The notes under the pieces are model-generated. The model was not told the origin of the DNA. It was given only the letters and a program-made list of their open reading frames with translations, and ran no database searches. From the NCBI GenBank assembly GCA_026400835.1, contig JAPLOA010000048.1, positions 62,001 through 126,000 on the forward strand: a stretch of 64,000 nt of DNA, given 5' to 3'. Origin of the DNA: Planctomycetales bacterium. GTDB taxonomy: Bacteria; Planctomycetota; Planctomycetia; Planctomycetales; Planctomycetaceae. Of the stretch, positions 58,296 to 64,000 are shown one piece after another (position 1 is the first letter of the stretch; the number at the start of each line of letters is the position of its first letter). The translations under genes were made by a program, and so were the position numbers.

Positions 58296-58645
58296 AACGG
58301 TCCGTCCGTACTTAACAAAGTCACCATAAACAGCAGAGATAGTTCCCATAGACTGACGAAATTGCATTCCGCTTCCAATTCTGAACCGTTTTTTGTTAAC
58401 CTGCGGTTGAAAAAGGTGTCATCCAGCCGGCACACCAATTCCAATCCGCGCCCGTAGCTCAGTTGGATAGAGCGACCGCCTTCTAAGCGAAAAACGGAAG
58501 CCGTTGCGAGCCACCTTTTCCAGTGTTTTATGCGGTTTCCGCATCGTTCAACATTGCAGGAAAAGTTCTGAGAATCTTCGTTGCGGTTGTCGCGACAACC
58601 GCTCAAACGACAACGCACGGCGCAAAACAAAACCCGCATCCATCA
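58296..58645. other. Junction region between GT2 gene and the mobile element
   Basis: It holds the truncated tRNA-Arg (58448-58489) and then the left end of the element. A TTGAAA at 58407-58412 could be a -35 box for the tRNA. From 58490 to 58645 no gene is seen. Confidence 0.5.
58448..58489 (+). tRNA. 5' half of tRNA-Arg (anticodon UCU), disrupted
   Basis: Acceptor GCGCCCG, TA, D-arm GCTC-AGTTGGATA-GAGC, G, anticodon stem ACCGC, loop CTTCTAA with anticodon TCT, then GCG. After base 58489 the expected GT... of the stem, the variable region, T-arm and 3' acceptor strand are absent; instead AAAAACGGAAGCC begins. The 3' half does not occur anywhere downstream in the window. The break is next to the anticodon loop, a favourite crossover site of tyrosine integrases. 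Confidence 0.88.
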
Positions 58646-58798
58646 TCACAATGGCGCGGGTCTCACGATCTCAATCAACTCGCTGGCCACCGCATCCGTG
58701 CAACCACTGGCGAGCCGTTGGAAGTGAACAATTGACTTCCAAGTCAGCCGAACATCCGCCGCAGCAATCCGATCAGACCTGTTGCCCGCTGTCCGCTG
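58646..58798 (-). pseudogene. Remnant copy of the 59641-59850 gene
   Basis: The frame from 58798 to the stop at 58646 translates to TWKSIVHFQRLASGCTDAVA, closely matching GWKSIFHFQHVASGRTDAAA of the 69-residue protein encoded at 59641-59850. It has no ATG, GTG or TTG start in frame after the upstream stop codon, so it is a decayed duplicate. Confidence 0.7.
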
Positions 58799-58887
58799 CT
58801 ACATTTGTGTCGTTCCGTTGCTGCCACCTGGTCAACCTCAAGGTTGCCGATCAGGCTTTCAATGTTGTCCTGGACGGTCTCGACTTC

Positions 58888-59490
58888 CTACGGCTCCGGC
58901 AGTTTCATCAGCCTGACATATTTCCGTTTCGTTTCGTTTGTGTCGCCTTCACGAGCTATGATGTCTTCCCACGCCTCCCAGCGTCCGGACTCAATCCATT
59001 GAATGCGGCGCATTGATTCCCTGCGTTCCTCACTGCAGGCATGAACCTGCAGCTCATCGTTAAGGAAGACGTGTTCAAAGTCGTTCGGGGGGGTATGCTT
59101 CCGCATCCACCAGCAACCGCGTTTTCCAGTCGCTACAATCCCCTTGCCACTGGTGTGCCAGTACAGTCCGCCAGGCTCCCACTGAAGCAGAGGCTCCGGC
59201 AGTTTCTGCACTTTCAGGTACTTTGCTTTCGTTTCTTCTGTGTCGCCTTCACGAGCTACGATGTCTTCCCACGCCTCCCAGCGTCCGGACTCAATCCATT
59301 GAATGCGGCATTTTGCTTCCGGCAGATAACGACTGCATGCGTGAAGTTGCAAGACGTCATTGAGATAGACGTGATATAAATATCCCGGGGGTCGATTGTA
59401 TATTCGCCACTCACCGAGTTTTCCGGTTGCTCGGTTTTGGTCCTTGGTATACTTCCACTGCAGCTCATTTGTCGGCTTCTGCTCTGCCAC
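58888..59490 (-). CDS. Element protein with internal 100-residue duplication
   Basis: 200 residues from a GTG at 59490 preceded by GGGGGAG at good spacing. Two halves are near copies: RIQWIESGRWEAWEDIVARE / RIQWIESGRWEAWEDIIARE and GDTEETKAKYLKVQKLPEP / GDTNETKRKYVRLMKLPEP. At DNA level the block at 58941-59000 recurs at 59241-59300, an exact 300-base step, with almost no synonymous change. Each half also carries a FEHVFLNDELQVHACS-type motif (YHVYLNDVLQLHACS). No known domain was recognised; Trp-rich beta-type modules are likely. It lies next to the element's left end. Confidence 0.75.
   Translation of the reverse strand: MAEQKPTNELQWKYTKDQNRATGKLGEWRIYNRPPGYLYHVYLNDVLQLHACSRYLPEAKCRIQWIESGRWEAWEDIVAREGDTEETKAKYLKVQKLPEPLLQWEPGGLYWHTSGKGIVATGKRGCWWMRKHTPPNDFEHVFLNDELQVHACSEERRESMRRIQWIESGRWEAWEDIIAREGDTNETKRKYVRLMKLPEP
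58941..59300 (-). repeat. 300-bp direct duplication within the element gene
   Basis: TGTCGCCTTCACGAGCTA at 58941 is repeated at 59241, followed by about 60 almost identical bases in both copies. The conserved synonymous positions suggest a recent duplication or gene conversion. Confidence 0.85.
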
Positions 59491-59640
59491 GTTTTGCTCC
59501 CCCTTTAGGATTGGCGTCGCTTATTCGGCCGCGAGCCTTTCAGCTTGGTCACGTCAGGTTGTCCGGTTAGCTGGTGTGGTTCGTTGGTAGCGGCCGCACC
59601 GGCGTTTCAATTATGGCCGAAACAGCGTTGGTCTACAAAT

Positions 59641-61895: not shown

Positions 61896-62104
61896 CTGGT
61901 TCGCTCCAAAAGCTCCGCACGTTCGCTGTGATGTGCGTCGTAGTCTTCAGCGTCGAATTCTTCCTGTATGCCGTCGCATCGCTGGTAATGCGGTCGCAGA
62001 TCGCTCCTGAGCCGTGACAGCTTCTCACGAGCCGACCACGTTGCTTGAATCAGCAGACATTCCGCTGCGATCTCTTCCGGCGATGGATCTGGATTCTGTG
62101 CCAT
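61892..62104 (-). CDS. Small element protein (70 aa)
   Basis: MAQNPDPSPEEIAAECLLIQ ... SERAELLERTR; predicted helical and charged, no domain recognised. The start is ATG with no strong ribosome site. Its stop overlaps the AlpA-like start by four bases, so it belongs to that operon and may be a regulator. It follows the inverted-repeat region. Confidence 0.6.
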   Translation of the reverse strand: MAQNPDPSPEEIAAECLLIQATWSAREKLSRLRSDLRPHYQRCDGIQEEFDAEDYDAHHSERAELLERTR

Positions 62105-62130
62105 GTGGTTGTCTGTCTTCGTCTTTGGTG

Positions 62131-62250
62131 ATGATCATGGTGATGGTGTTCGTTGGTAACCTAAAGGTATACCAACAACGAACATCATCCCCCCATGATC
62201 GTTGATGGTCGTTGGTCCTCGTTTAACAAACATCAACGAACATCAACGAG
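62131..62250. promoter_or_regulatory. Inverted and direct repeat block upstream of the AlpA operon
   Basis: GTTCGTTGGTA (62148-62158) faces TACCAACAACGAAC (62170-62183) as an inverted repeat; ATGATCATGG (62131) faces CATGATCG (62194) outside it. Further on, CATCAACGAA and CATCAACGAG stand in tandem at 62231-62250. GTTCGTTGGTA recurs at 59579-59589. The block lies between the primase-helicase stop and the 70-codon gene start, so operator sites for AlpA or replication iterons are both possible. Confidence 0.5.
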
Positions 62251-64000
62251 CATCTCTGATTTGTCATATTCCGCGACATACTCATTCAGCAGATACCCTG
62301 CTGCCTGAAGCCTATTAAGTGCGTCCCGATATGGTCGCTGAATCAATACTTGTTCTCTGAGCATCTCAGCGAACACGAATCGGAAGTCAGCCTGTACCGC
62401 TCCTGCAGCCTGCTCAATCGCGTTTTTAGACTGGGGTGTTTTGACGTTTCGAACAGCCTTGAGAATAAGTGCTCGTGCCCGTCCTCGTTTCTGTTCGTCA
62501 GCCTCACGACGAGCATCATCCCGCCGCTGTTGTTCATCGGCCTGAGCCTGCTCCGTATACTCGTGCCAGTGATCCACCTGGAACGTCCAGTCATGCTCGT
62601 TAAATAAGATCCTGCGACCGCCACCCTGACCTTCGCGACCGCCAAACTGAATGCACAAGTCGTGTTTCCAGTCCCATGCGTAGGGTTCATTGCGACCGAC
62701 CAGCCACCATTGGCCGCAACTTTCAGCGATGCCGGCCCCAGTCATATCTTCTAACTGGGGGGGAGTGCCGTATTCCCGCGCGGCAGATTTGACAACGTGA
62801 TGACTGAGCACCATACAAGCAGGAGCACAAGCAGCCTGGAACGACTTGATTGCATCGCCCATTTCACCGAGCCGAGCCGAATCGACTCCTGACAAGCCAC
62901 GATATAGCGGATCAGCAATAACGACTTCGAATCCATGCGTCTCGATGTCCTTACGAATCGCGTTCTGATCTGCAATCCGAGGCAGACACGGGAATTCAAC
63001 CGCTTCAATCCGCAGATATCCTTTCAGGTCTCCAAACTCGAGCCCGCGCACCTTACAGGCTTTCTCGATGTGCTTTGCAATCCGCCTGTAATTGGCTTCG
63101 CCCGTGATGAACAGCACCTTGCGACGTTTTGGAACATCAAAGATATTCATCCACGGCGTACCACTAGCGACCGCGACCGCCATGTCAGTCAATTGCAGCG
63201 TCTTGCAGCCTTTGGAACGAGCACCGACAAGCAGGGGTTCATCTATCGTAAAAACATCTTGAACGAGCCAGTCGGGCTCCTGCGATGCGTAGGAGGTTAA
63301 TTCCGATGCGTCGATGCCTGCGAATGACCGAATGATTGGAGCAGATGCCTGCTGTTGGCCTGTAGGCTGTTCAGCCGCCGTGCTGTCCTTCAGTTTATGC
63401 TCACGACGAAAAGCAGCGTCGATCTGTCGCGTTCGCTCGTCACCCAAAAAAGCCTTTGCAGCGTCGATCTGTTCATGGTCGTTAAATCCATGTGACTGAT
63501 ACCAGAAACGCCACTTTGAATAATGGCCTTCGTCGATTGGAGCCGCATTGGTCCAGACGTGAAGCCTGTTGTCTGAGTGCAGGAGCGTTGCGGATCTTGC
63601 GTTACTCCAATCGTTCCCTGGTCTCGTCCAATCGTCATCTTCAAACGCCTGCCAGCCCTGATCAGTCAGCAGCTTTTCCCACGGATACATCTCGATCAAT
63701 TCTTCAGCCGCTGGAACATGCGTCGTGTGACCGCCAATTCGGAGTTGCATCGAAGCCGCGACAGGCTTCTTCTCCGACTTCGTCTGCGACCGTTTCTTTT
63801 CGCGTTCTTCGGCCTTGCGTTTGCCGTCCAGTATCCGCAGATCCAGAAACAACTGCCACATGGCATCTGGAAGCCTTGCGACTTCAACTTCGTCAGGCGA
63901 TAGCCCTGGAAGCCACTGGTATCGTTTCCCGCTTTCATGCACCGACGGCGGAACGACTGACTGAGCAGGAGTTTTCCCGAATCGCCATTCAGTTCCGAAT
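62233..64000 (-). CDS. Primase-polymerase / AAA helicase fusion (N-terminus outside window)
   Basis: The frame is open from the window edge through base 63942; upstream of the GTG at 63942 it reads SVVPPSVHESGKRYQWLPG, the end of a bifunctional primase-polymerase domain. So GTG is not the true start. The ATPase at about 215-430 (counted from that GTG) has VGARSKGCKTLQLTDMAVAV, a variant Walker A in which Cys replaces Gly before Lys-Thr, then VVIADPLYRGLSGVD and VLSHHVVKS. A C-terminal helical segment follows (QQRRDDARREADEQKRGRAR). It resembles the replication proteins of phage satellites and RepA-like helicases. Confidence 0.82.
   Translation of the reverse strand, partial: FGTEWRFGKTPAQSVVPPSVHESGKRYQWLPGLSPDEVEVARLPDAMWQLFLDLRILDGKRKAEEREKKRSQTKSEKKPVAASMQLRIGGHTTHVPAAEELIEMYPWEKLLTDQGWQAFEDDDWTRPGNDWSNARSATLLHSDNRLHVWTNAAPIDEGHYSKWRFWYQSHGFNDHEQIDAAKAFLGDERTRQIDAAFRREHKLKDSTAAEQPTGQQQASAPIIRSFAGIDASELTSYASQEPDWLVQDVFTIDEPLLVGARSKGCKTLQLTDMAVAVASGTPWMNIFDVPKRRKVLFITGEANYRRIAKHIEKACKVRGLEFGDLKGYLRIEAVEFPCLPRIADQNAIRKDIETHGFEVVIADPLYRGLSGVDSARLGEMGDAIKSFQAACAPACMVLSHHVVKSAAREYGTPPQLEDMTGAGIAESCGQWWLVGRNEPYAWDWKHDLCIQFGGREGQGGGRRILFNEHDWTFQVDHWHEYTEQAQADEQQRRDDARREADEQKRGRARALILKAVRNVKTPQSKNAIEQAAGAVQADFRFVFAEMLREQVLIQRPYRDALNRLQAAGYLLNEYVAEYDKSEMLVDVR

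Follow-up and report, generated by a model that had tools for sequence, protein, structure and literature searches.

A putative phage satellite in an arginine tRNA gene of a Planctomycetales bacterium and related elements in the order

Phage satellites have been studied best in Proteobacteria and Firmicutes. Here we analyze an integrated element of a Planctomycetales bacterium, termed the C101 element, which lies across the end of a 64,000-nt stretch of DNA ("the window", contig C101:62001-126000 in a 7.58-Mb genome of 112 contigs, G000). Judged by its genes, it is likely a phage satellite that works like the Staphylococcus aureus pathogenicity islands (SaPIs) and the phage-inducible chromosomal islands (PICIs). 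Newer satellite types have been reported from Cyanobacteria and Actinobacteria (PMC11389934). According to the sequence-only reading of the window, this gene logic is not known to have been described in Planctomycetota, and we likewise found no satellite from this phylum in the open-access literature searched, judged by titles and the beginnings of abstracts; the main text of PMC6092414, which calls PICIs ubiquitous, does not contain the string "planctomycet".

SaPIs and PICIs share with the C101 element an integrase at one end, a regulator of the AlpA/MerR type, a replication gene, attachment (att) repeats and, in some of them, a terminase small subunit (TerS) without a large terminase; in gram-negative PICIs AlpA acts as the activator (PMC6092414). 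In the C101 element the integrase, the regulator (AlpA by its match to phrog_66, the Pfam matches being below cut-off) and the replication gene are combined in one island, and TerS is carried without a large terminase. The C101 element differs in its primase-polymerase with AAA_25 and TOPRIM module, its length of 9.8 kb and its host from Planctomycetota, and the likeness described here is one of gene logic. The sequence-only reading had compared this logic with both P4 and the PICIs. The PICI part of the comparison held; P4 carries genes such as psu, delta/sid and alpha, and no P4-specific gene was seen among the Pfam matches of ten C101 proteins at E 0.1.

Other described satellites resemble the locus in part. 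Ccm of SaPIbov5 is an HK97-like capsid homolog and is needed for the formation of small capsids (PMC5052747), and PmCI172 also encodes a capsid homolog (PMC6092414). A lone capsid gene is likewise present in two sibling elements of the same genome, C39 and C72, whereas the C101 element itself has none, and seven of nine planctomycete satellite capsids form a clade of their own among the proteins compared, which come from the order. Capsid-forming PICIs (cf-PICIs), which are widely distributed across Bacteria, encode in addition the protease, portal, connectors and both terminase subunits (PMC10690885). The satellite-borne capsid gene of the siblings is a feature in common with them; however, none of the 14 elements analyzed below matched our profiles for portal, large terminase or protease. 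The minimalist islands (PICMIs) are small satellites with integrase, alpA and primase, which adjoin fis in Vibrionaceae and are reported to have no capsid-remodelling gene (PMC10803314). The C101 element is likewise small and has the same three kinds of gene, but it resides in tRNA-Arg instead of next to fis, and its primase belongs to PF09250 instead of DUF3987/DUF5906.

Integration site and gene content of the C101 element

We analyzed a region of 32 kb around and past the window end; "window-equivalent" coordinates extend the numbering beyond 64000. The element is complete and comprises 9,773 bp from the start of one att repeat to the start of the other, with the following features:

58448..58489, + strand: attL, nt 1-42 of tRNA-Arg(TCT), representing the 5' half of the host gene that integration has displaced; exact 42-nt repeat, empty site in G132
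58888..59490, - strand: 200-amino-acid (aa) protein whose gene contains a duplicated segment (129-nt direct repeat, 85%)
59847..60401, - strand: gpNu1-type TerS, 184 aa as called (phrog_57, 8e-12)
60494..60859, - strand: 121-aa open reading frame (ORF), no Pfam or PHROG family found
60985..61611, - strand: 208-aa protein that by eye looks helical/coiled; the G012 element has a similar gene ahead of terS (28% over 110 aa)
61653..61895, - strand: AlpA/excisionase-like helix-turn-helix (HTH) regulator, 80 aa (phrog_66, 6.6e-9)
61892..62104, - strand: 70-aa protein; related proteins are encoded at five further integrase-tRNA loci of the genome (C53, C72, C39, C21 and, more weakly, C17); no PHROG match
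62233..64000, - strand, running on outside the window to 64377: primase-polymerase/AAA_25 replication protein, 714 aa (PF09250, 2e-21; PF13481, 3e-15)
window-equivalent 66922-68178: tyrosine integrase, 418 aa, adjoining the complete tRNA (PF00589, 6.4e-7; phrog_1, 8.4e-23)
window-equivalent 68221-68294, outside the window: attR, the second exact 42-nt copy, opening the complete tRNA-Arg(TCT)

Integration, presumably of a 9.8-kb circle by the tyrosine integrase, took place in the anticodon region of tRNA-Arg(TCT). The first 26 nt of the repeat found no match in 200 shuffles, even at 3 mismatches. In the congener G132 an uninterrupted tRNA-Arg(TCT) follows the same glycosyltransferase gene and represents the empty site: the sequence upstream of this tRNA corresponds to the element's left flank, and the terminator region downstream of it to the right flank. 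A group I intron in a split tRNA, which had also been considered, was dropped when the integrase and the empty site were found. The extension thus recovered the other end proposed by the sequence-only reading, with integrase and both attachment sites, and it corrected several details. That reading had the element start at 58490 and end at a tRNA; the boundary is 58448, and the tRNA sequence at this end is only the 42-nt 5' half, in agreement with ARAGORN, which found no tRNA in the window. The complete tRNA sits at the far end, 4.2 kb past the window edge. The size of 9.77 kb falls just under the predicted 10-18 kb.

Since the repeat spans nt 1-42 and the element brings a new 5' half, the rebuilt tRNA must be transcribed from element DNA; this rare 5'-fragment integration makes the expression of an arginine tRNA depend on the element. 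In the Islander collection 159 of 3919 tRNA islands leave a 5' fragment and 3760 a 3' fragment, so the polarity of the C101 element is that of a rare class (PMC4383910). Unlike it, the siblings C53, C86, C72, C39, C77 and C21 have 3' fragments, the usual kind. The congener G131 has the initial 40 nt of tRNA-Arg(TCT) joined to different DNA, which runs to the end of the contig; this tRNA possibly hosts another island, and the site may therefore be used repeatedly. The DNA after the 40-nt start (L063 4153-6013) bears a histone-deacetylase-like ORF, named by eye. In G000 itself a short second integrase match in a 100-aa open frame lies just beyond the complete tRNA, on the usual 3' side (G000:C101:130457-130639, window-equivalent 68457-68639), and may stem from an older element integrated at this tRNA.

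The main genes, i.e. those for integrase, TOPRIM protein, primase-polymerase/AAA, AlpA/HTH regulators and TerS, all lie on the minus strand. The primase-polymerase/helicase, AlpA-like regulator and Nu1-like TerS named in one orientation by the sequence-only reading were all recovered by Pfam or PHROG matches. The interval between integrase and primase encodes a 275-aa ORF, a 95-aa HTH/AlpA-like protein, a 71-aa ORF, the TOPRIM protein (phrog_6247 "DNA topoisomerase", 4.7e-44; the label TOPRIM is our reading) and a 92-aa HTH protein. The Pfam scan covered ten element proteins, leaving out the 275-aa protein, and the PHROG scans 14 ORFs. In Pfam the 80-aa regulator matches HTH_17 (1.6e-5) and AlpA (0.006), both under the curated cut-offs. 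Neither these scans nor a six-frame profile search found a capsid, portal, protease or large terminase gene in the element, and the PHROG scans and profiles revealed no tail gene; the absence of virion genes noted within the window thus extends to the other end, and the capsid, portal and tail genes of an ordinary prophage, which the sequence-only reading had named as decisive against a satellite, did not appear. The element accordingly encodes functions for its own integration and replication but lacks a complete set of virion genes, as characteristic of phage satellites. PADLOC, run on the ten proteins, found no defence system, merely a weak mad1 match of an HTH protein. For the 200-aa protein there was no Pfam family above cut-off and no PHROG match, and its predicted structure was too poor to use (predicted local distance difference test, pLDDT, 41); its gene occupies the extreme end of the element, where genes for cargo or interference functions could be located.

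A search with the primase alignment found eight named relatives, which come from Fuerstiella sp., Planctomyces sp. and metagenome-assembled genomes of Planctomycetaceae. As a single query against IMG/VR, a search that detects close relatives only, the protein found none; with the alignment as query, three viral contigs were retrieved that carry a related AAA protein amid tail-type genes, and the AAA part therefore also occurs in apparent full phages.

By its profile matches the C101 TerS is a gpNu1-type terminase small subunit: it matches phrog_57, "terminase small subunit", while no Pfam family reaches its cut-off, and it has no match among the INPHARED phages. A profile of two rows (the C101 and G012 TerS) searched in 170 genomes gave 18 matches, its own two rows included, in 13 genomes. 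Eight of them lie within 3 kb of a GpA_ATPase match; all six neighboring proteins tested carry GpA_ATPase and GpA_nuclease, the other two cases being judged by position alone, and one such TerS-gpA run is followed by a lambda-family portal (PF05136, 6.8e-51). Relatives of this TerS thus stand beside gpA-type large terminases, which supports the packaging reading. Part of the remaining matches are found in satellite-like settings (G012, G028, G039:C250), and the C101 terS gene itself has no gpA large terminase as neighbor, as expected of a satellite.

Related elements and satellite-borne capsid genes

Elsewhere in this genome we examined eight tRNAs that each adjoin another integrase gene. Six have att repeats of 43-49 bp spaced 7.8-10.0 kb apart, while C17 (tRNA-Gln) and C68 (tRNA-Arg TCG) have no att repeat:

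C53 element: tRNA-Phe, 8,577 bp
C86 element: tRNA-Met, 9,986 bp
C72 element: tRNA-Arg(CCG), 9,462 bp
C39 element: tRNA-Thr, 9,840 bp
C77 element: tRNA-Arg(CCT), 9,961 bp
C21 element: tRNA-Ala, 7,825 bp

C101, C53, C72, C39 and C21 have mosaic modules in common (the 70-aa protein, TOPRIM, HTH, parts of the primase/helicase). Protein identities reach 86% for TOPRIM (C101/C39), 89% for AAA (C101/C72) and 98% for TerS (C53/C21), which indicates recent gene exchange; at the DNA level C101 and C72 have in common 1,361 bp at 87%, C101 and C39 133 bp at 100%. The C101 integrase differs from its C72 counterpart (E 1.8) and has only weak similarity to the one of C39 (7e-5). The packaging genes vary as well, C53 possessing another type of TerS (phrog_2538, 4.3e-7), and C39 and C72 a P27-type TerS (phrog_83 1.7e-5 in C39; in C72 found by six-frame search with a profile built here, 8.5e-14). 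C86 (L013 2100-12170) and C77 (L018 6106-16143) are 10-kb tRNA elements, the former with DNA-polymerase-like and primase-like genes recognized by eye.

Similar att-bounded elements occur in G028 (two), G036, G148 (two) and G151; an att-bounded element of G014 showed no packaging gene. One G028 element (L137 4884-14733) has two different TerS-type genes, of P27 and Nu1 type, plus a DUF3987 protein. No repeat was found for the tRNAs in L014, L016, L067, L070, L074, L086 and L140 or for the second tRNA of L089, and L094 (G068), which has a capsid gene, was left aside with a repeat of only 23 bp. Altogether 14 att-bounded elements from six genomes were searched in six frames with profiles built here. 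Portal, large terminase and protease were each detected in 0/14, with profiles derived from five local prophage segments whose genes were labelled partly by gene order; these represent a single type and could overlook virion genes of other types in elements other than C101, the ORFs of which were compared with all PHROGs. In a control on 20 capsid stretches outside its seeds, the portal profile matched in 14. TerS was found in 10/14 (weakly, at 4e-4, in G148b) and capsid in 7/14, G148a being counted from other searches as it was below the pass mark in this one; several profiles were built with proteins of these very elements, where positives hold by construction, and the independent support comes from Pfam and PHROGs.

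C39 and C72 each carry a lone HK97 major capsid gene together with terS (PF05065, 2.3e-30 and 4.2e-26, respectively), and these are the sole two PF05065 matches in their genome. The same combination occurs in elements of other genera, and the single-contig genome G148 has two 98%-identical capsid genes in two elements located in two tRNAs. For the order we calculated a capsid tree with 40 proteins, 12 of which were left without group assignment; the row L092 counts as prophage on account of its protease, no portal having been seen, and the G014 and G101 rows come from loci without a confirmed att repeat. The clade of seven satellite capsids mentioned above (two from G000, one each from G014, G101, G028, G036 and G151) has support of 97/97, and the two G148 rows make up a second lineage. 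The tree requires 2 label changes versus 7.8 in shuffles, with 0/500 as low, a figure helped by near-copies. The C72 capsid retrieved 41 INPHARED records, all below 60% identity, and as single queries in IMG/VR (again a search for close relatives only) the C72 and C39 capsids found none. Another set of capsid genes (L090, L097, L099, L156, L157, L160, L167) clusters mainly by genus (g10, g51), with the PF04860 match several kb off, elsewhere or absent; these genes could belong to a domesticated particle or gene transfer agent.

A shared non-coding motif

Toward the late end of the C101, C72 and C39 elements we found a non-coding motif, in two copies in C101 and in one copy each in C72 and C39. 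The C101 copies are:

58680..58742, + strand: first copy, whose core TGGAAGTGANNNNTTGACTTCCA is near-palindromic; a 44-kb viral contig has a site that matches 68 bp here at 88% identity
59744..59843, + strand: second, longer copy, directly downstream of terS; 77 bp (59767-59843) 83-86% identical in C72 and C39

Elsewhere in the window the motif is absent at up to 3 mismatches, and it is absent from 100 shuffles. Among 171 loci the other exact matches are duplicates of these places or three viral contigs, two of which match the core only. In the third, of 44 kb, the site lies between the tail-side region and recombination genes. The motif may be a regulatory, replication or packaging site; its interpretation as a proven cos site was rejected, as the copy in the viral contig is not beside a recognizable terminase. 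The same IMG/VR contig (L169/L172) has an exonuclease and a NinG-like gene and offers a lead to the type of helper.

Proposed life cycle, rival explanations and the helper phage

From the sequence we infer the following course of induction, excision, replication, packaging and transfer. Infection by a helper phage would lead the AlpA-type regulator to switch the element on, and excision would follow. The primase-polymerase/AAA protein, with the TOPRIM protein, would replicate the element, whose gpNu1-type TerS would recognize a packaging site on it and recruit the gpA-type large terminase of the helper. Heads assembled from helper proteins, perhaps together with a sibling's capsid protein, would then take up the element DNA. 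If this is true, several satellites per genome and a capsid-gene lineage of their own in a distant phylum would point to helper piracy being more ancient, or having been invented more frequently, than assumed, and the elements provide planctomycete phage biology with a concrete, testable system.

A number of observations weigh against this picture. The C101 TerS has an N-terminal HTH that resembles other regulators (phrog_191, phrog_66), a weak best PDB match (E 0.058) and a poor AlphaFold model (pLDDT 54), and among 18 genomes of the genus the TerS profile matches only in G000, i.e. the distribution is patchy. A simple promoter scan found no consensus sigma-70-type promoter on the element side of the rebuilt tRNA. 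Among the siblings, C86 and C77 match the integrase profile only and neither the TerS nor the capsid profiles, and one 114-aa product of C72 weakly matches a major tail protein (phrog_9522, 4.6e-7). Finally, a search of the genome for a resident helper by PF04860, PF05876 and phrog_2 detected no PF04860 portal and no GpA_ATPase, and thus no resident helper by these families.

Some of these points would suit an integrative plasmid or mobilizable element, built on a primase-polymerase replicon, that moves by conjugation or not at all and whose "TerS" is a mere DNA-binding regulator. The TerS assignment is based on sequence only, no packaging gene was seen in C86 and C77, and primase-polymerase/AAA and TOPRIM modules would also suit plasmids. 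We nevertheless consider this explanation improbable: the Pfam scan of the ten C101 proteins found no relaxase family, the TerS family adjoins gpA large terminases, and siblings carry HK97 capsid genes above the Pfam cut-off. Even less probable is a prophage that has decayed to its integrase, replication genes and terS, although the recognizable genes are of phage type and the short integrase match just past the tRNA shows decay at this very site. The main frames are open, both att sites are exact and the empty site is clean; the 14 att-bounded elements resemble one another in their small size and in the parts that they lack, and the clade of satellite capsids is a supported one, apart from the prophage proteins. 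An elaboration with several partners, which we regard as unlikely, would have the G000 elements act together as a co-operating or layered guild: C101, C53 and C21, with TerS only, would travel in small capsids using the capsid protein of C72 or C39, one outside helper would give portal, large terminase and tails, and the 77-bp site of C101, C72 and C39, found in part also in the 44-kb viral contig, would be a common packaging or induction signal.

For the C101 element as a phage satellite, the sequence-only reading had argued that the host must harbor or meet a matching helper. A harbored helper received no support, the sole phrog_2 match in the genome being weak (7.9e-4, L085). Across the 170 genomes of the order PF04860 is present in 46 and GpA_ATPase in 25; with both families present in the order and no resident helper detected, an encountered, visiting phage is the likely helper. 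In the congener G122 a PF04860 portal gene lies at a contig end, preceded by genes that we read as those for TerS and the large terminase.

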